Shown piece after piece: positions 454 to 51,262 of a stretch of DNA of 64,000 bases. A model generated the notes under the pieces. It had not been told where the DNA came from and did no database searches. It worked only from the letters and a program-made list of their open reading frames with translations. Position 1 is the stretch's first letter. Every line of letters begins with the position of its first letter. Location: NCBI RefSeq assembly GCF_009754915.1, contig NZ_WPIK01000004.1, positions 124,001 through 188,000 on the forward strand. The letters are read 5' to 3'. The translations under genes were made by a program, and so were the position numbers. Origin of the DNA: Mucilaginibacter arboris. Lineage in GTDB: Bacteria > Bacteroidota > Bacteroidia > Sphingobacteriales > Sphingobacteriaceae.

Positions 454-2190
454 ATGTTTAATAAATTTTTATTGGGGTTTTGTTCGCTATTTGTTTTTTA
501 CAATCATTTAACAGCACAAATTTTAACACAAAGTACCAGTTTACCGCAAAGTATTTACCGCTATCCGCAAGATTATTTTCGTTACCCTTTAGATTTACCG
601 CCCAGTACCGCCGGTTCTTTTGGTGAGTTAAGGCCGAACCATTTTCATTCCGGCCTGGATTTTAAAACCAATCAGCGTACGGGCTACCCGATCCATGCAG
701 TTGCTGATGGTTATGTTGCACGTATTCGTGTTCAATATGGTGGTTTTGGTTTGGCTGTTTACATTGCTCATCCCAATGGCTATACTTCTGTTTATGGCCA
801 TCTGGATCATCTTACAGCAGAGTTAACCAAAATTATTAAAGATTATCAGTATAAAAACCAGACCTGGGAAGCAGATATTCTTTTAGAACCAACACAAGTT
901 CCGCTACAAAAAGGAGATGTTTTTGCCTGGTCTGGCAATGCCGGCGCTTCTGGCGGCCCGCATTTGCATTTTGAATTGCGGGACACACAAACAGAGCAAA
1001 CCATCAACGCACAATTATTTGGCTTAACTATTCCGGATCGTGTTCCGCCTACTATTTATTCTATTGCTGCTTATCATCTCAACAGAAAACCTTTCAGCGA
1101 AAACACAACAAAGCAGTTTGTTGCAGTTACAGGTTCTGCAGGAAATTACCGGTTAAAAGAAGCATCGCCAATTAAATTAAGCGGAGAATCTGCTTTTGGT
1201 ATCACCACCAATGATATGAACAGTAGTTCGTTAAACCATAATGGCATTTATTCTATTCAGCTAAATGCTGATGGAAAAGTGGTTTATGTTTTTACGGTTG
1301 ACCGTTTTGCTTTTGATCAAACCCGTGCCATTAACTCGCACATAGATTATCCTGCTTTTTTAACTTCTGGCCGGTGGGTGCAGAAAAGTTTTGTTGATCC
1401 CGGAAACCAGATCGGTTTATACAACGGCACTCAAAACCGCGGCGTTATTAATTTTAATGATGATGCATTCCATGATATGGAATATATAGTAAAAGATATT
1501 GCAGGAAATACTTCGGTACTTAAATTTCAGGTAAAATCATCGCCGCCGGCAATAACAGAAACGGTTGCTGCAAAAGGCAGTTTTTTTAAGTTCGACCAGC
1601 AAAATATTTTTTCTACAGAGCTGGTTAAAGTAATTATCCCTGCCGGAAGTTTGTATGATAACCTGAATTTTATTTACAGTACCCTACCCCGTAAAACCGG
1701 TGCTTATTCTGTTGTCCATCGCATTCATAATCGTTTTACCCAACTCAATAATAGCATTGAACTTTGGATAAAACCAGATGTTTCGCTTGGTGCCAATGCT
1801 GATAAAGCTGTTATTGTAAATACAGGCGGCGGCTGTTTTGGAGGAGTTTTTAAAGATGGTTATGTAAAAGCAAGCATCCGGGAGTTTGGGAATTATTATA
1901 TTGCGATAGATACAATTGCACCAGTTATCACACCTGTTAACATCTCCGAAGGAAAAAATATGTCTGCGACAAGTAATATGATATTTCGGATAAGCGATAA
2001 CTTATCAGGAATAAAAACTTATAAAGCTTATATTGACGGGCAGTGGGTTTTATTGGAGCATGATTATAAAACCAAAACGTTTCGTTATTTTTTTGATGAA
2101 CATTGCCCGGCCGGAAAACATAAACTGGAAATGGTAGTTACGGATTTAAAAGATAATGTAAAAAAACTGACACTGATTTTTTACCGGTAA
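454..2190 (+). CDS. Secreted M23 (LytM-type) peptidase
   Basis: A 578-residue protein. The ATG at 454 was chosen over an upstream ATG at 421 because it opens a clean signal peptide (MFNKFLLGFC...LTAQ) and avoids overlap with the preceding gene. The LytM zinc-peptidase domain spans about residues 60-185, with the HSGLD motif (H65, D69) and PHLHFELR (H170, H172), the expected metal ligands and catalytic histidine. The roughly 390 residues after it have no motif I recognise and probably form beta-rich domains. Family members cut peptidoglycan cross-bridges in the periplasm. The stop codon TAA is itself the first bases of a copy of the dispersed TAAAAGAAGCAT repeat (2188-2199). The bcp gene follows 26 bases later. 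Confidence 0.88.
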   Translation: MFNKFLLGFCSLFVFYNHLTAQILTQSTSLPQSIYRYPQDYFRYPLDLPPSTAGSFGELRPNHFHSGLDFKTNQRTGYPIHAVADGYVARIRVQYGGFGLAVYIAHPNGYTSVYGHLDHLTAELTKIIKDYQYKNQTWEADILLEPTQVPLQKGDVFAWSGNAGASGGPHLHFELRDTQTEQTINAQLFGLTIPDRVPPTIYSIAAYHLNRKPFSENTTKQFVAVTGSAGNYRLKEASPIKLSGESAFGITTNDMNSSSLNHNGIYSIQLNADGKVVYVFTVDRFAFDQTRAINSHIDYPAFLTSGRWVQKSFVDPGNQIGLYNGTQNRGVINFNDDAFHDMEYIVKDIAGNTSVLKFQVKSSPPAITETVAAKGSFFKFDQQNIFSTELVKVIIPAGSLYDNLNFIYSTLPRKTGAYSVVHRIHNRFTQLNNSIELWIKPDVSLGANADKAVIVNTGGGCFGGVFKDGYVKASIREFGNYYIAIDTIAPVITPVNISEGKNMSATSNMIFRISDNLSGIKTYKAYIDGQWVLLEHDYKTKTFRYFFDEHCPAGKHKLEMVVTDLKDNVKKLTLIFYR

Positions 2191-2216
2191 AAGAAGCATT
2201 AGAACAAATACAGCAT

Positions 2217-11426: not shown

Positions 11427-11633
11427 GAGAAAGGGTATGGGGTTTAGGATTTGGGGTAGGAGGTAGGAGTTAGGAGGCAGCAGCAGGTAAATAAAAAGAA
11501 GTTTAAACAAACTAAACATAACTATATCAAAAAAGTAAGAAAAGCAGTTAACTCAAACCCCATACTCAAAACCCTACCCACATACCTCAAACCTCAAACC
11601 TCATACCCCAAACCTCATACCTTACAGCTAATT
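11427..11633. repeat. Low-complexity inverted repeat (G-rich arm, C-rich arm) within the MoxR operon
   Basis: The left part is runs of GGTATGGGG, GGATTTGGGGTAGGAGG and similar words. The right part is the complementary kind: CCCCATAC, CCCTACCCACATACC, CCTCAAACCTCATACC. Together they can form a long imperfect hairpin. Between them is AAGTTTAAACAAA, a word also found at the tips of the MITE-like elements near 43 and 47.7 kb. No gene is seen here. Confidence 0.7.
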
Positions 11634-13166
11634 ATGCTTCAACTACTAAACCCTTTATGGCTTTGGACTATCGCCGGAATCATCGTTCCGATAGTTATCC
11701 ATTTGTGGCATATTAAAACCGGTAAAACGCTTAAAATCGGAAGCATTGCTTTGTTGGGAGAAAGTGCGCGTCAAAGTTCGCGTAGTTTTCGGATAACAGA
11801 TTTAATATTACTGCTTTTGCGCTGTTTAATGCTGATCATATTGGCACTTTTATTAACAGCACCTTTCTGGCAGAAACAAGCAAAACTAACCAAAGCAAAA
11901 GGCTGGGTTTTATTAGAAAAACAACCGGTAAAAGAAGTATACGCCCGCTTTAAACCGCAAATAGATTCGTTAATAAAAGCTGGTTATGAAATCCATGAGT
12001 TTGATGCTTCTTTTAAGGCAATAAAACCTGAAGAAATTTTAAAGGATTCAACCAAATCTCAGTCTCGCTCCTACTGGTCTTTGTTAAAGTTGCTGGAGCA
12101 GCAACTGCCACAGAAAACACCCGTTTATTTATTCACTTCCAATCAGTTGCGTTACTTTAAAGACAATCGCCCGGAATTAGCTCTTGATCTTCATTGGAAA
12201 ACCCATACACCTGCTGATTCTGTTTCAACCTGGATCCAGGGCGCTTATTTAACACCAACCGATAGCATTCAATTAATTGTTGGCAACAGCAAAGCTTCCG
12301 GTACTTCTTTTAGCAAGATAAATCTGCAATCGACCGATCGTGGCAATCCGCTTTTTAACGTTTCTGTTGAAGAAGGGAAACCTGTTGCAGCTTTAAAAAA
12401 TAGTCCGCAACCACCGGTCCCTGTTGATACATCAACCTTAAAAATAACCATTTATCAAAACCAGTTTCCTGCAGACGCTGCTTATCTGGAAGCTGCATTA
12501 CAAGCGGTTAAAAAGTTTAGCGGTAGGAAAATAAAACTGATTTCTGCAACAAACTTCAACCAAATTCCGGCAAAGCAGAACTGGATTTTCTGGTTATCCA
12601 ATCAAAACTTTCCTCAAAAAAATCAAAAATTAGTTGCAGGCGGAAATTTATTTGAATATGAAACGGGCAAACAGCAAGCAATTAATTCATGGATTAACAG
12701 TTCTGAGAGTTTTGGAAGAAGTGCTTCTGAACCGATCAATTTATATCAACATTTTTTAGCCGATAAAAGAAGCATTGCTGATGAAAATAGCGAAACTGTT
12801 TGGAAGGATGGTTTTGGTGGACCGGTTTTAAGCTTACAGCAAAACGGAAATACAAATATTTATCGCTTTTACAGCCGCTTTAATCCTTCCTGGAATGATC
12901 TGCCCTGGAGCAGTGATTTTCCAAAAATGATTTTAAACCTGATTTACGAAAGTTTTCCGCCAGTAGATTTTTCTAATAATGACAGAAGAATTATGGGTGA
13001 AGATCAAAAGCAAATTTCCACAGCAATTTCATCAGATCCATCTTATAAAAACAGCAAGCAAATGGATATGATTGATTTAAAACACGCATGTTGGATTGCC
13101 TTGTTCCTGGTTTTTTTATTGGAACGGATTCTTTCTCAAACAAAAAAAGAAGAAAATTATGGTTGA
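11634..13166 (+). CDS. BatA-type membrane protein
   Basis: A 510-residue protein with the BatA N-terminal domain: MLQLLNPLWLWTIAGIIVPI and HLWHIKTGKTLKIGSI, then a second membrane segment (LLLRCLMLIILALLLTAPF). The long middle part is probably periplasmic, and a C-terminal membrane segment (ACWIALFLVFLLE) closes it. BatA-like proteins belong to the Bacteroides aerotolerance/MoxR class. No clear MIDAS motif is seen. The stop overlaps the start of the next gene by 8 bases. Exact or nearly exact dispersed-repeat copies lie at 11929, 12004 and 12764 in three different frames. Confidence 0.85.
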   Translation: MLQLLNPLWLWTIAGIIVPIVIHLWHIKTGKTLKIGSIALLGESARQSSRSFRITDLILLLLRCLMLIILALLLTAPFWQKQAKLTKAKGWVLLEKQPVKEVYARFKPQIDSLIKAGYEIHEFDASFKAIKPEEILKDSTKSQSRSYWSLLKLLEQQLPQKTPVYLFTSNQLRYFKDNRPELALDLHWKTHTPADSVSTWIQGAYLTPTDSIQLIVGNSKASGTSFSKINLQSTDRGNPLFNVSVEEGKPVAALKNSPQPPVPVDTSTLKITIYQNQFPADAAYLEAALQAVKKFSGRKIKLISATNFNQIPAKQNWIFWLSNQNFPQKNQKLVAGGNLFEYETGKQQAINSWINSSESFGRSASEPINLYQHFLADKRSIADENSETVWKDGFGGPVLSLQQNGNTNIYRFYSRFNPSWNDLPWSSDFPKMILNLIYESFPPVDFSNNDRRIMGEDQKQISTAISSDPSYKNSKQMDMIDLKHACWIALFLVFLLERILSQTKKEENYG

Positions 13167-20330: not shown

Positions 20331-20361
20331 TAAAAACAGCATCGGTACAATACTTCTTTTA
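20331..20361. repeat. Facing pair of dispersed repeats
   Basis: TAAAAACAGCAT at 20331-20342 and, on the opposite strand, the TAAAAGAAGTAT form at 20350-20361, just past the TldE terminator. The rest of the gap up to 20538 is AT-rich and holds no gene that I can see; it must contain the promoter of the AhpD-like gene. Confidence 0.75.
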
Positions 20362-22449: not shown

Positions 22450-23775
22450 CTACTTCTTCAGCCAGCCTGTTTCATTTCCATCTTCTATCAAATAAAAAGA
22501 CTCAAAACCAGCCAGTACATTTACCGGTTTTCCGGCTGCCAGGATTGTCTTTTTTGGTGATAAAGTATCGGGTTGGTTATACAAAGGCTGTGCTGTTTTT
22601 AACGTATATTTTCTTAACGGCGCGTTTATAGTATTAACAGATTTACTGTTTAAAAAACCTGTTTGTCCGTTTGGCAGCGTTACTTTGTAATAATTTCCAA
22701 CAGCAGCATCTACATGCAAAGCTGTTCCTTCCGGCAATGCTTCTTTTACCGGTGCTTTTTCGGTAGCTTCTGTAAGTAATTTGCTGTTTCGGGTATCTGT
22801 CCGAACCATGGTATTCAGGTTTTGCAGAGGAGCGGTAACAGGTTCAGGTTTTTTAGTAACAGGTGCAACAAAAGTAAGCGGATTAACAGCGCCGCCATTG
22901 GTATAAATGCCAAAATGCAAATGTGAAGGTGTAGTTTTAGCATTGCCGGTATTGCCAACCAAACCAACGGTATCACCAACAGAAACATGCTGACCGTTGT
23001 GTACCAGTTGCGAATCCAGATGTGCGTAATACAAAGTATAGTCCGCATCGTCAGGATGCAAAAAAACTACTTTTCCGCCTAATTTATTTTCGCCTGGTTG
23101 AGCAATCCCGTTGGCTGCCGCTAAAGCTGGCGTTCCTTTTTTAGCGAAAATATCAACGCCTTCATGCTTGCGGATTCCGGCATCGCGATCAGCTCCATAA
23201 AAACTGCCAATATTTGGTTTGCCGGAAGCGGCAACTGGAAAAGCTAAAGCCGGGCCAGATTGGATTATCAACGTATATTCTCCGCTCTTCAATAATTCTG
23301 GTTGTAAACGAAGCAAATAGGTTCCGCCCTGCTTTACTTCTACAGTTAAAGGTTTCCCGGAGGTATCGGCAGAAGCCAGTAATTTGTTTTGCTGGGATTT
23401 TTGCTGCCATAAATCTATAAAAATATTAAAATTTTGTGCGGGATTTTTACTGAGGCTGATATACAGCTTCTCCCCTCTTTTGCCTTCAAACTGAAAAGTA
23501 GCGGCCTGAACACGTTCTGCAGCAAAAAAACCGGTTTCTTTATACGGAATGGTGATGTGGATTGCTTTGCCCAAACTTTGATCTGCCATTTGCAGCCACT
23601 GGCTTCCTATGGCCGTTTGCTGCAAACCAGCAGTTTTCAAACGGTTGCCATAAGTATCATGAGGAGACATTTTTTTAAATAAACCAGCAGGCCCAATACT
23701 GTTACACGAAAAAATAGTTGCTAAAAGAAGCATCCAAATTAGAGCGCTTAATTTGGATTGGGTTAGTAAATTCAT
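22450..23775 (-). CDS. Lipoprotein M23 peptidase with SH3-like domain
   Basis: A 441-residue protein with an N-terminal hydrophobic stretch ending in the lipobox-like IFSC near residue 24. A pre-peptidase beta domain lies at about residues 60-175. The LytM zinc domain follows, with HEGVDIFAKKG and HLHFGIYTNGGAVNPL, so it should cut peptidoglycan stems or bridges. The C-terminal part has one or two bacterial SH3-like repeats (LPEGTALHVDAAVGNYYKV). Repeat copies lie inside the gene at 22737 (read VKEA) and at 23722 (signal-sequence region, read LLLA on the other strand). Confidence 0.88.
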   Translation of the reverse strand: MNLLTQSKLSALIWMLLLATIFSCNSIGPAGLFKKMSPHDTYGNRLKTAGLQQTAIGSQWLQMADQSLGKAIHITIPYKETGFFAAERVQAATFQFEGKRGEKLYISLSKNPAQNFNIFIDLWQQKSQQNKLLASADTSGKPLTVEVKQGGTYLLRLQPELLKSGEYTLIIQSGPALAFPVAASGKPNIGSFYGADRDAGIRKHEGVDIFAKKGTPALAAANGIAQPGENKLGGKVVFLHPDDADYTLYYAHLDSQLVHNGQHVSVGDTVGLVGNTGNAKTTPSHLHFGIYTNGGAVNPLTFVAPVTKKPEPVTAPLQNLNTMVRTDTRNSKLLTEATEKAPVKEALPEGTALHVDAAVGNYYKVTLPNGQTGFLNSKSVNTINAPLRKYTLKTAQPLYNQPDTLSPKKTILAAGKPVNVLAGFESFYLIEDGNETGWLKK

Positions 23776-24118
23776 AAATGTAAATTGACTTTCAATTTTA
23801 ACCTTCCAGAAGTATGAATGTTTGCTGCAAACTGATGGCCGGGATGGTCCTTTATCAAAGGTTTGCTATCAGTTTTACCAACAAGAGAAACCTTCATCAA
23901 GTAATATAATATTTATTGCAAACTGCGAAAAAACAATGAGCGAAAGAATGAAACGCTGTTTGAGGTTGAGTATAAACATCAGCCGTAAAACTAAGCTTTT
24001 TATATTTTGATGCTGTTTTTATGCCGGTAAAAACAGTATTGGTTTAGGGATAAAGATGCAAAACCCTCAGCATAAAAAATTATGTCAAGAGTTTACATGA
24101 TTAAAATGGGAGGTCTTT
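23776..24118. other. Gene-free interval
   Basis: No convincing gene in 343 bases. It holds AAACTGAT/ATCAGTTT complementary words near 23829 and 23869, and the back-to-back repeat pair at 24010-24039. The promoter of the M23 lipoprotein (minus strand) must lie near 23776-23830. Confidence 0.6.
24010..24039. repeat. Back-to-back pair of dispersed repeats forming a palindrome
   Basis: ATGCTGTTTTTA, then TGCCGG, then TAAAAACAGTAT: the two copies form a 30-base near-perfect palindrome. This is the clearest example of the full dyad from which single copies could derive. Confidence 0.85.
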
Positions 24119-25096
24119 TTAGTAACGTTTCACACTAAAATCAGAAATACCGCCTTTTAAATTGAGGTATATTTTTTTAGGTGCCGCAGCAAAACCGGCC
24201 GTTTCATACTGGCTGTCGCTTTTAGATTCAAACCCATCAAAATTTTTGGAGGATAAACCTGTTTTGCTGTTGATATGGCAAGCCGCATCCTTTGGTACGC
24301 TGATGTTTACTTCGGAAACTCCGGTAGAAATATCAACCAGCATGTTGTTTACCGGCTCACCCAATTTTACATCCATTGAAGTAGCGCCGCCTTTTACATG
24401 CAAATTCCTGATCTTAAATTTACTTAAATCTAAGTTCATTTTACTTGCGCCAGATGCAACATCAATATTCCATTCGGGGTTTGTGTTAAGCTTAATAGTT
24501 GCCTTATTACCTTTATCGCTATCCCAGTTAATAGAATGCCTGGAACTTCTGGTGTTAAAGTTGATGGTTTTGCCAGAATCGGTTGCCAGGGTGTTAAAAA
24601 CAAACTTTCCGGATAACTCATGTGTAGCTGCACTAAAAAGTTCGGCGGTTGTATCCTGTAAAATATAAGTAGCGCCGCCACCTCTAATGTTTAATGTAGC
24701 AACTTTTACCTGCGGCGAGTAGGGTTCCTGGTAGGTGCTGTTCCCTTCTAATTTAGTTACACCTTTTCCCTCATGATCGTCATCGTCATCGCTGCTATCA
24801 TCATTAAAAAAAGCATTGTTGTTAAAATGATTGTTCCAGAAATGGCTATCGGCCGGCATAGCGCCGCGATACACAACCAGTGCAAAAACTGCTATAAAAA
24901 CAGCTACTTTTACAGCAGTAGCGCTGCCAGAATTTTGGTGGGAAAAAACCATGTTTACGCCAGATAAAATCAGGAACAGCGGCCAAAGCCTGATGATGTT
25001 TCCCCAGTGGAAATTGATCACATTAAAATTATCCAGTAAAAACAGTATGCCAATGCCCAGCAAAAACAAACCGGTAAATAATCTGTCGCGTTTCAT
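24119..25096 (-). CDS. LiaF-like / cell-wall-stress membrane protein
   Basis: A 325-residue protein. The N-terminus has LiaI/LiaF-type membrane segments (GLFLLGIGILFLLDNF, IIRLWPLFLILSGVNMVF, VAVFIAVFALVVY). A polar Asp-rich linker (NDDSSDDDDDHEG) and a C-terminal beta-helix 'toastrack' domain follow (ASGASKMNLDLSKFKIRN, TGVSEVNISVPKDAA). Such proteins modulate envelope-stress signalling in other bacteria. The gene follows the PspC gene on the same strand and is probably co-transcribed with it. Confidence 0.82.
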   Translation of the reverse strand: MKRDRLFTGLFLLGIGILFLLDNFNVINFHWGNIIRLWPLFLILSGVNMVFSHQNSGSATAVKVAVFIAVFALVVYRGAMPADSHFWNNHFNNNAFFNDDSSDDDDDHEGKGVTKLEGNSTYQEPYSPQVKVATLNIRGGGATYILQDTTAELFSAATHELSGKFVFNTLATDSGKTINFNTRSSRHSINWDSDKGNKATIKLNTNPEWNIDVASGASKMNLDLSKFKIRNLHVKGGATSMDVKLGEPVNNMLVDISTGVSEVNISVPKDAACHINSKTGLSSKNFDGFESKSDSQYETAGFAAAPKKIYLNLKGGISDFSVKRY

Positions 25097-27895: not shown

Positions 27896-28036
27896 AAGAA
27901 GTTTGAGGTGTGAGGTATCAGGTACGAGGTTTGAGGTGCGAGCAATTTGCTTAATACTAAGTGTCAATACCAATACCTCAAACCTGATACCTCAAACCTG
28001 ACACCTCACACCTCGAAGTTCACACCTCAACAAAAA
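27896..28036. repeat. GAGGTRTGAGGT-type inverted repeat
   Basis: The left arm repeats GAGGTGTGAGGTATCAGG and GAGGTTTGAGGTGCGAG. The right arm has CCTCAAACCTGATACCTC and CACCTCACACCTCG. The arms are complementary and can form a long cruciform or hairpin. It is the same kind of sequence as 11427-11633. An open frame runs through the right arm into the methyltransferase and would give an artificial N-terminal extension. Confidence 0.75.
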
Positions 28037-36366: not shown

Positions 36367-36795
36367 ATGAAAACTTTAAAAACAACCCTGCTCGCCTTGT
36401 TACTAACCGTAACTTACAGCATTAGCAAAGCAAACCTTCCAAACCGCAGCGAAAGGCTGACCATGCGTTATGCAATTTCTGCTTATGTTGATGCTTTTAC
36501 ACATGGCAAATGTGCCGGGCTTGCAGATGTTATTGATGACAGCGCAAAATTTTCGCATACCCGCGGCGAAAAAATAATCAGCTTCAGCAAAAACGAGATT
36601 TTAGAAAGCCTTAAGAACCAGCAAGACGTAGAACAAAATTGCACCACTACTGCCCGAATTGTTGAAAGTACAGCAAAATTGGTTGTATATAAAGTACAAA
36701 TGAAATACGAAAAATTTTCGCGCATTAACTTTGTAACCATGACTGATACTGGCAATGGCTGGAAGATTACTAACGTTTCTACCGTATTTAGCTAA
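36367..36795 (+). CDS. Secreted NTF2-like protein (lumazine-binding-like family)
   Basis: A 142-residue protein with a signal peptide (MKTLKTTLLALLLTVTYSI). The mature part has an NTF2-like pattern (RYAISAYVDAFTHGKCAGL, VKYEKFSRINF-type strand, GNGWKITNVSTVF at the end) seen in 'putative lumazine-binding' or SnoaL-like secreted proteins. No catalytic residues can be assigned, and the function is unknown. A terminator made from the repeat follows at 36813. It lies inside the parC-parE gap on the opposite strand. Confidence 0.75.
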   Translation: MKTLKTTLLALLLTVTYSISKANLPNRSERLTMRYAISAYVDAFTHGKCAGLADVIDDSAKFSHTRGEKIISFSKNEILESLKNQQDVEQNCTTTARIVESTAKLVVYKVQMKYEKFSRINFVTMTDTGNGWKITNVSTVFS

Positions 36796-36812: not shown

Positions 36813-36852
36813 TAAAAGAAGCATTCTTGTTGACGCGGGGATGCTTTTTTTA
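36813..36852 (+). terminator. Terminator formed by dispersed repeat and its complement
   Basis: The motif TAAAAGAAGCAT (36813-36824), a GC-rich loop (TTGACGCGGGG) and ATGCTTTTTTTA (36841-36852). The stem AAGCAT/ATGCTT is followed by a T-run, 18 bases after the NTF2-like gene. Confidence 0.75.
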
Positions 36853-36926: not shown

Positions 36927-37208
36927 ATGACAACAGTTAGCATCACTCAATTATATTCTCTTTTAAATGAGAAAGTAGGCAAAGAAACTGCTGAAAACTT
37001 GACTGGTTATATTGAGGAAAAAATCAAAGCTGAATTTGACAGACAATCAGATATTTTAGCTACAAAACAAGACCTGTCAAAGCTTGAGACAAAACTAACT
37101 GAAAAGTTTCTTGAAGCTAAAGCAGACACCATAAAATGGATGTTCATTTTTTGGATTGGACAAATTGCTGCTACTTTTGGTTTTATATTGTTGTTTTTGA
37201 AGAAGTGA
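36927..37208 (+). CDS. Coiled-coil, C-terminally anchored small protein (DUF1640-like)
   Basis: A 93-residue protein with an N-terminal helical part (SITQLYSLLNEKVGKETAEN), a coiled coil (LATKQDLSKLETKLTEKF, EAKADTIKW) and a C-terminal membrane helix (MFIFWIGQIAATFGFILL). The architecture resembles the DUF1640/CCDC90 group, whose members are common near toxins or phage-like islands in bacteria; the function is unknown. Two relatives lie nearby: a shorter one at 37711 and a frameshifted one at 43332. Confidence 0.8.
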   Translation: MTTVSITQLYSLLNEKVGKETAENLTGYIEEKIKAEFDRQSDILATKQDLSKLETKLTEKFLEAKADTIKWMFIFWIGQIAATFGFILLFLKK

Positions 37209-37385
37209 TATCTTATTTTCAAATTTTCAAAGTAACTTTTCTGCGAGTTGTATCCTACAATACCGTTTTTTCAATTGCAGATTTTTAAGCAAGTTATAAA
37301 TTACATCCCTTGCTTGAGCATAAAATTTAATTTTATACTGATGAAATAGCATTTGTTTGCACTCGAAGAGAAACAGACTCCTACT

Positions 37386-37710: not shown

Positions 37711-37872
37711 ATGAATTCAAAGTATGAATCATTAGCAACTAAAGAGGATATGGCAAAGCTTGAAACTAAAATGGCAAAAAACAAAGCCGAAACAATCAAG
37801 TGGATATTCATTTTTTGGATCGGACAGATTGCTGTTACTTTTGTTTTTATCTTGCTGTTTTTAAAGAATTAA
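37711..37872 (+). CDS. Short coiled-coil/membrane protein, relative of the 36927 gene
   Basis: 53 residues beginning MNSKYESLATKEDMAKLETK, ending in a membrane helix WIFIFWIGQIAVTFVFILL. The C-terminal 40 residues are about 80% identical to the end of the 93-residue protein at 36927, so it is a partial duplication lacking the N-terminal half. It has its own ATG and stop. The upstream sequence is a REP-like hairpin, so its promoter is uncertain. The stop lies 5 bases before the end of the convergent parE gene (37878). Confidence 0.65.
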   Translation: MNSKYESLATKEDMAKLETKMAKNKAETIKWIFIFWIGQIAVTFVFILLFLKN

Positions 37873-37877
37873 AATTA

Positions 37878-40480: not shown

Positions 40481-40847
40481 CAGATCAGTTTAAGGTTTTT
40501 AAAGAAAAACTATTAGTTTTAATTTTAACCAACTTAATTTCGTTGCTCTATTAAATGTAATTTAATTAGTACCGGCTTAAATTTTAATAATTAAAGGACT
40601 ATTTTTCTTTTGACATAGAATTTATTAAGTGATAATTGGAGCATGTAAGTTACTATTATTATCAATATTTTATAAAAATTAATTTTTATTTCCTTCTCCA
40701 TCAATCCTGTCATTTCAATTAAAGCTGTTAACATTTTTTTACCGGTAAAAGAAGCATCAGCGTTAAGGCGTAACAAAAAATTGCTTCTATATTCGCGTTT
40801 GCATTAACTGCTGTAAACCATTTAAAGCAGATATAAATATATTTTTA
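40481..40847. other. Gene-free interval with one full repeat
   Basis: No credible gene; a short frame on the minus strand at 40591-40776 lacks support. The motif TTTTTTACCGGTAAAAG, followed by AAGCAT, at 40737-40757 is a palindrome plus the repeat; a partial ATTGCTTCTAT at about 40780 may pair with it. Confidence 0.55.
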
Positions 40848-42958: not shown

Positions 42959-43188
42959 GTTGTTTAAACTTTTGGTGCCAATTAAATTTGATCCTACGGC
43001 ATGCCCAAGTTTAGTGCCATGCTTCTTTTACCGGGTAAAAATTGGTGTTTACATAACCTATAAGGTTTTGAAAACCTTATAGGTCTTTAGTGATTAAATC
43101 GATCAAAAAAATAATGGTTAACATTTTTTAGGTGATAAAAGAAGCATCGGCCCTAAAAAAAGAGGGTCAGAAAAAAAGTTTAAACAAC
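42959..43188. mobile_element. MITE-like palindromic element, copy 1
   Basis: About 230 bases bounded by inverted tips GTTGTTTAAACTTTT (left) and AAAAGTTTAAACAAC (right). Inside are a reverse copy of the dispersed repeat (43019), a centre made of a long palindrome (ATAAGGTTTTGAAAACCTTA), and a forward copy of the repeat (43136). It matches 47673-47893 in inverted orientation over most of its length. It codes no protein, so transposition would need enzyme supplied elsewhere. Confidence 0.75.
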
Positions 43189-43266
43189 TTCGATATATGC
43201 TATTTATAAAGATATACAAATAAATAGCTAATACTTCTTTTATCAACTAAATTTTTAATTATAACA

Positions 43267-43331: not shown

Positions 43332-43590
43332 TTATTTTTTCAGTATTGCAATTAAAAGGCCACCAAGCGGTATTAAAAGACCCATCCAAAATATGAACAT
43401 CCATTTAATGATGTCGGCTTTAGTTTCAGCCAAATCTGATTTGCTTGCCATGTGTTCAATTTTACGTTCCACAGCCGATGTAATTGCTTTTTCTTTTGTA
43501 TCCTCAAAGTAGTTAACTACTTTTTTTAGCGTCTTGTTCTGTAAAATTCCTTTTCAGGATTTCGTATATTTCCAACGTTTCCGTATTCAT
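43332..43590 (-). pseudogene. Frameshifted DUF1640-like coiled-coil membrane protein
   Basis: The minus-strand reading begins MNTETLEIYEILKRNF and then stops early because of an extra base in a run of seven A (RNA sense). After correcting by one base, it reads KVVNYFEDTKEKAITSA then VERKIEHMASKSDLAETKAD and ends in a membrane helix (WMFIFWMGLLIPLGGLLIA). The total length is 259 bases, one more than a multiple of three. It is homologous to the genes at 36927 and 37711. A sequencing error in the homopolymer would make it an intact 85-residue gene. Confidence 0.7.
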
Positions 43591-47435: not shown

Positions 47436-48115
47436 ATTTTAAATGTATTTGTATTAAAAATGTGAACGTTGCCTGTTGTTAAAAAGTACAATTTATTATG
47501 CATTGGCTGTTAGCTATAACTTTTATTTAGCCTTTGTATAAAACCTGTTTAAGTTTTATACAAATTATTTTGAATGCTTCTTTTATCACCTAAAAATAGA
47601 GGTGTCCCATATCTTAAAAAACAAACATAAAACCATAAGCTAAAAGAAACAATAAGTTTTTTTGATATTGAAGTTGTTTAAACTTTTTTTGTGGCCTTCT
47701 TTTTTTTGGCCGATGCTTCTTTTATCCCTAAAAATGTTGGCCCTTCGCTAAAGACCTATAAGGTTTTGAAAACCTTACAGGTCTTTAGTGATTAAATGTA
47801 AACACCAATTTTACCTGGTAAAAGAAGCATGGGCACCAAAGCTGGGCATGCTGAAGGACCAAATTTAAATGGGTACCAAAAAGTTTAAACAATCTCAATC
47901 AAAAACAAATAAGTGCGATATTTTTTGAAGCATTACTTCTTTATGTTTTTTTTGTTACAAAAAAAGCAATAGACCTGCTTAAAAAATTATTTTTTTTATA
48001 AATTTTGCAATTTTATTAGCTTTTATTAATTTTATAGCAAAATAAGTGTAACCAATTGCACTTGTACAAGTATACCTAAATAACCAATATAGTTAATTTA
48101 TCAATATTAAAAATC
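47436..48115. other. Gene-free interval with MITE-like element
   Basis: 680 bases without a credible gene: the repeat at 47574, the element at 47673-47893, then very AT-rich DNA up to 48115 that includes long A and T runs (about 47936-48040). Confidence 0.7.
47673..47893. mobile_element. MITE-like palindromic element, copy 2 (inverted)
   Basis: About 221 bases with tips GTTGTTTAAACTTTTTTT (left) and AAAAAGTTTAAACAAT (right). It holds a repeat in reverse form (47713) and in forward form (47819), and the same central palindrome with flanks in the other order. The reverse complement aligns with copy 1 (42959-43188) along most of its length. Confidence 0.75.
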
Positions 48116-51172: not shown

Positions 51173-51192
51173 TAATCTTTATTTTTGTGCCT

Positions 51193-51233
51193 TAAAAACA
51201 GCATCCGGTTTAAATCGTGATACTGTTTTTACC
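51193..51233 (+). terminator. Terminator formed by two dispersed repeats
   Basis: TAAAAACAGCAT (51193-51204), a 15-base loop, then ATACTGTTTTTA (51220-51231). The stem of AAAAACAG with CTGTTTTT is followed by a short T-rich run, 20 bases after the tsaC stop. Confidence 0.8.
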
Positions 51234-51262
51234 ACCTAAAAATTGGTATTTGTCCAAAATTT

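Follow-up and report, generated by a model that had tools for sequence, protein, structure and literature searches.

The window, a 64-kb stretch of DNA that was analysed as a whole, contains a 30-base sequence at 24010-24039 that reads ATGCTGTTTTTA-TGCCGG-TAAAAACAGTAT and lies between two genes of the minus strand, one encoding an M23 peptidase and the other a LiaF/LiaI-like membrane protein. The arms (24010-24021 and 24028-24039) are complementary at 11 of 12 positions and the 6-base centre is not palindromic in itself; the near-perfect palindrome of the original prediction is exact in sequence and coordinates. Two divergent copies of a word, TAAAARMAGYAT (mostly TAAAAGAAGCAT), stand back to back in it. 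The window gave no Rfam or tRNA matches. The features of the locus are:

22450-23775, minus strand: gene for an M23 peptidase with an SH3 domain, start 234 bp from the palindrome
24010-24039, both strands: back-to-back word pair with a 6-bp centre, the main finding
24010-24021, minus strand: word copy TAAAAACAGCAT
24022-24027: centre TGCCGG, which supplies the plus copy with the preferred C at -3, G at -2 and G at -1
24028-24039, plus strand: word copy TAAAAACAGTAT
24119-25096, minus strand: gene for a LiaF/LiaI-like membrane protein, stop 79 bp from the palindrome

Within the minus copy, TTTTTA (24016-24021, plus reading) is the A/T tract (-12 to -7) of the plus copy, and the reverse is also true. 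A word palindrome also adjoins the same end of the LiaF-like gene in G027, another genome of the genus. The window palindrome and that at G027:C12:76883-76912 are identical at 29 of 30 positions if one is flipped, and at clearly fewer if both are read directly; relative to the shared neighbour gene they look inverted, which may reflect flipping of short palindromes or chance drift.

The original prediction had missed that this unit recurs throughout the genome as a word with more than 3,000 copies. In the genome of 4.16 Mb, the pattern TAAAARMAGYAT has 3,246 matches (0.78 per kb), 1,626 on one strand and 1,620 on the other, and a reversed-pattern control gave 21 matches (7 + 14); TAAAAGAAGCAT had 1,947 matches in the same genome. 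An unbiased k-mer count of the window gave 28 copies of TAAAAGAAGCAT where 0.05 were expected, and TAAAAACAG was found 24 times there versus 2.3 expected. The copies in the window, including the two that had been noted before at 2181 and 40737, are distributed as follows:

1154-55374, both strands: first to last of 58 exact copies of TAAAARMAGYAT, one per 1.1 kb
2177-2199, plus strand: word copy TAAAAGAAGCAT with A/T tract and CCGG in front (the former 2181)
40735-40757, plus strand: word copy TAAAAGAAGCAT with A/T tract and CCGG in front (the former 40737)

The anatomy of the word was drawn from 353 copies in 445 kb and from 369 isolated copies in 725 kb. In the flank matrix of the 353 copies, positions -12 to -7 are mostly A or T, with C and G together at 1-3% at -10 to -8; they are followed by C or G at -4, C or T at -3, G at -2 (73%) and G or A at -1, then by TAAAAGAAGCAT, and the profile is flat outside -18 to +14. 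The full word can be written as an A/T tract (-12 to -7)-N2-(C/G)(C/T)G(G/A)-TAAAAGAAGCAT, with TAAAAACAGYAT as a second form. Core positions 5 and 6 are coupled, being GA or AC and seldom AA or GC, so that two word forms exist side by side. The half-dyad reported in front of the two other copies is indeed there, since TTTTTTACCGG directly precedes the copies at 2188 and 40746. Derivation from a longer palindrome, which had been read from it, is not supported by the flank, which is A/T and not an inverted core: in the comparison of copies proposed originally, the left side proved to be conserved, but in the form of an A/T tract with G at -2 and not as half a palindrome, and the palindrome is a special case of two sites that share their A/T tracts.

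The genome contains the arrangement ATRCTKYTTTTA-N6-TAAAARMAGYAT at 36 sites, versus about 0.63 expected by chance (1,626 x 1,620 / 4.16 Mb) and 0 in the control; back-to-back pairs with exactly 6 bp number 36, 49 and 27 in the three genomes of the genus. Among the 550 copies in 725 kb, only 10 have a full inverted left half (12/12). When the inverted core was scored on the flank matrix of isolated copies, a spacing of 6 was the clear optimum with 5.5 bits for TAAAAACAGTAT and 2.2 bits for TAAAAGAAGCAT, all other spacings giving 1.1 bits or less. The TAAAAACAG form, which gives the partner a T instead of a C at -12, makes up 52 of 72 copies in 6-bp pairs versus 109 of 369 isolated copies (p = 2e-11). 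Only at 6 bp does each core supply the A/T tract of its partner, and the optimum at this spacing together with the enrichment of TAAAAACAG identifies the palindrome as a pair of sites with reciprocal use of their A/T tracts.

Placement and orthologue comparisons bear on the proposal that the palindrome is mobile. In 725 kb, 256 copies are coding, 258 lie between genes and 36 lie on edges (n = 550; gene calls are mechanical ORFs). Coding copies occur in both orientations and in all tolerable reading frames; none lies in the frame that would read TAA. In alignments with two relatives of approximately 75-85% identity (about 100 aligned copies), divergence of the core was 0.044 for genic and 0.048 for intergenic copies versus 0.25 in the flanks, and the A/T tract was likewise conserved. 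At third codon positions, divergence amounted to 5.5% (0.055) inside the word and 41% (0.411) in the flanks; therefore, conservation of the encoded protein does not explain conservation of the word. Copies are kept at orthologous positions and are gained or lost by substitution: at 39 unshared copies the counterpart differs by substitutions or by small gaps of at most 11 bases, and an insertion of a unit was found at none of them. A mobile palindrome or REP/MITE-like element, with the single copies as decayed halves, could account for the recurrence of palindromes in all three genomes, but most copies are single, many are genic, positions are conserved, the left side of most copies is an A/T tract and the unshared copies lack unit-sized indels, so that this explanation was rejected and is barely credible. 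A protein binding site, the other possibility raised originally, is consistent with a core that has an A/T tract one helical turn away and with conservation at the DNA level both in and between genes; as a whole, the earlier interpretation of the palindrome is partly supported.

These word statistics rest on 725 kb of contigs of the genome itself, a draft assembly, and on whole-genome pattern counts. No strand or regional bias was seen in the 725 kb: two contigs of 397 and 328 kb carry 155/139 and 133/123 copies on the two strands, and neighbouring copies have the same or opposite orientation about equally often. Orienting sites of recombination or segregation such as Chi and KOPS are strand-biased along the replichore, and the known ones are shorter than 12 bases plus an A/T tract. 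The word shares with them that it is short, very frequent and conserved, but the strand balance shows no replichore bias (as judged in a draft assembly to which replication direction was not assigned) and the length of the word exceeds theirs, which makes a role of this type highly improbable.

Between genes, word density is 3-6 per kb and peaks at 5.85 per kb where the genes converge. Copies are concentrated in the first 50 bp behind a stop, and where both flanking genes have the same strand the median distance from the upstream stop is 34 bp. Convergent pairs with loops of 14-16 recur. Convergent pairs in the window are:

20331-20361: convergent word pair, weak hairpin (z -0.7)
36813-36852: convergent word pair, just after an ORF end at 36795
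51193-51231: convergent word pair, terminator-type hairpin of -15.7 kcal/mol in a 66-nt context (51180-51245), z -4.2

The strong fold of the last pair and the clustering after stops would fit a family of transcription terminators or RNA hairpins. Most copies are single, however, about half are genic, and the palindrome at 24010-24039 folds only modestly on the transcribed strand (-7.1 kcal/mol); as originally stated, it has no T tail, and the T run of an intrinsic terminator is absent after the stem on both strands. Termination as the basis of the word is quite improbable and may be at most a secondary use, by analogy with DUS and USS.

Repeats of other kinds were also seen in the window. Inverted duplicate stretches at 43056-43196 and 47665-47782 include the palindrome ACCTATAAGGTTTTGAAAACCTTATAGGT; arrays of ACCTCAA/ACCTCAT-type heptamers lie at 11548-11636 and 27898-28030, the second of which forms a 50-base inverted repeat; and related stretches of up to 93 bases with 83-88% identity at 37119-37211, 37783-37875 and 43381-43428 are probably the ends of paralogous genes for small membrane proteins.

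Each of the three genus genomes carried the word (all are draft assemblies of 92-100% completeness, and G027 at least was assembled from a metagenome), the two relatives having 3,710 and 2,655 copies. It was near control level, that is chance level, in all of 118 other genomes of the family (Sphingobacteriaceae), TAAAAGAAGCAT was found 0-11 times and so at chance level in each of 249 other genomes of the order, and among 80 named gyrB-type loci the word occurred only in the genus member. K-mer scans revealed no comparable dispersed word in samples from 17 further genera of the family or from about 19 genomes belonging to other families of Bacteroidota, the samples being of at most 20 kb, in which words below about 0.3 per kb could be missed; the repeats met there were local or, in G162, CRISPR-like. 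Viral contigs scanned with a 14-mer had one match per contig among the matches listed. Within the genus, copy-poor DNA of a mobile type was examined in one island, the 70 kb at 50-120 kb of contig C1 of G027, which has one word copy where about 50 were expected. Genes in this region (G027:C1:50000-120000, L068-L072) encode a MobF relaxase, VirD4-like pieces, Qat anti-phage defence, a protein with a Piwi domain and a lantibiotic dehydratase.

A search for competence machinery revealed ComEC, DprA and an HhH protein in the genus, but relatives without the word also have ComEC, DprA and HhH proteins, so that their presence does not discriminate. Neither an ATPase of type IV pili (T4P) or T2SS (PF00437 over the cut-off) nor a secretin (PF00263) was found in the three genus genomes; both were found in G001 and G006. 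In Neisseria and Haemophilus, it is these two components through which DUS and USS uptake proceeds. Matches to PF00437 below the cut-off occur in G000, G002 and G027, the last one inside the MobF relaxase and thus not a pilus ATPase. The DUF5689 protein, which is essential in R. anatipestifer, was not found in the genus. If the word acts in uptake, it is unlikely that its receptor belongs to the T4P minor pilins known in this role, of which ComP is an example and ComN a predicted one (PMC12616744).

The absence of T4P uptake parts in these searches would suit a word that is bound on the chromosome by an abundant protein specific to the genus, for nucleoid structure, segregation or modification; the word would then have no role in uptake and would be under selection at each site. 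Core plus A/T tract does resemble a protein site and is conserved site by site in and between genes, but about 3,200 copies, half of the sampled ones genic, would each need selection and would have to be spread without strand or regional bias; drive accounts better for the scarcity in the island and for a distribution limited to one genus. We regard this explanation as unlikely, while many marks of the word would also fit another frequent DNA-binding site.

Other short words are over-represented in bacterial genomes. HIP1 of cyanobacteria, a palindromic octamer, is over-represented genome-wide like the word, which differs in being asymmetric with an extended A/T tract. DNA-uptake self labels are, to our knowledge, restricted to two families of Proteobacteria. 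The USS of one of them, the Pasteurellaceae, lie on both strands and in and between genes, like the word. As in Haemophilus influenzae, a short core is combined with A/T tracts and present in more than 1,000 copies genome-wide (PMC7811141), and the copy number is of the same order as the 1,465 9-bp cores of H. influenzae and the 1,892 of N. meningitidis quoted in PMC7811141. Unlike USS, the word is of unrelated sequence, has one A/T tract, upstream of the core, and resides in a member of the Bacteroidota in which neither T4P ATPase nor secretin was detected, its own uptake role being putative. The DUS of Neisseriaceae form clade-level dialects, have two near-equal forms per genome in some species, and occur as inverted pairs associated with terminators (PMC3630211). 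The word is likewise clade-level, has two forms and forms convergent pairs at gene ends; it differs in its unrelated sequence, in its exact 6-bp back-to-back pairs and in that ComP, the DUS receptor, is a minor pilin of T4P, which was not found here.

Closer in phylogeny is Riemerella (Flavobacteriaceae), of the same phylum, whose non-classical transformation machinery has ComEC, DprA, ComF and an HhH protein (PMC8459023, PMC7965970), three of which (ComEC, DprA, HhH protein) are shared. R. columbina prefers its own DNA (PMC7965970), and thus self-preference exists in the phylum. Unlike here, only A/T-rich k-mers and no convincing uptake word are reported for Riemerella, and the DUF5689 protein is absent from the genus with the word. 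Literature on uptake words in Bacteroidota or Sphingobacteria was not found in a search covering mainly freely readable papers.

In sum, copy number, strand balance, location in and between genes, conservation, clade restriction, scarcity in the island and the combination of core and A/T tract are best matched by uptake sequences. Like these, the word has about 0.5-1 copies per kb equally on both strands, is genic and intergenic with intergenic enrichment, forms inverted pairs at gene ends, is conserved at the DNA level in orthologues as a clade-specific dialect, is scarce in acquired DNA (one island) and is accompanied by inner-membrane and cytoplasmic competence genes; a T4P machinery with a minor-pilin receptor, as in both known families, was not found. 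We therefore do not file the word as a T4P-dependent DUS or USS but only as working like one. It is probably a DUS/USS-like signal for DNA uptake that is maintained by a bias in natural transformation, with the palindrome being two copies back to back.

Such a function, its receptor and the molecular drive behind it are proposed from the genome data and would operate as follows. A DNA receptor at the cell surface or in the periplasm, part of the machinery for natural transformation, would prefer DNA that bears the word; DNA of the own kind would be taken up more often and recombined into the chromosome by ComEC, DprA and RecA. By this preference, copies would accumulate and be repaired at the same positions. 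Back-to-back pairs with 6 bp would be favoured because the A-run of each core is the A/T tract of the other, which places two full sites in about 30 bp, and convergent pairs would form terminator-type hairpins downstream of some genes.

With moderate confidence, this is an uptake word of the Bacteroidota, outside Neisseriaceae and Pasteurellaceae; its receptor would be something other than a type IV pilin, since the genus has no T4P ATPase or secretin in these searches, and its back-to-back sites have their A/T tracts in common. The two families in which sequence-specific uptake has been studied are both proteobacterial and rely on type IV pili; an independent case in Bacteroidota, if true, would mean that the marking of self-DNA evolved separately and with another machinery. 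The 12-base word would then be a handle on the outer-membrane DNA receptor of transformation in Bacteroidota and, having arisen in one genus, would make models of molecular drive testable against close relatives that lack it.
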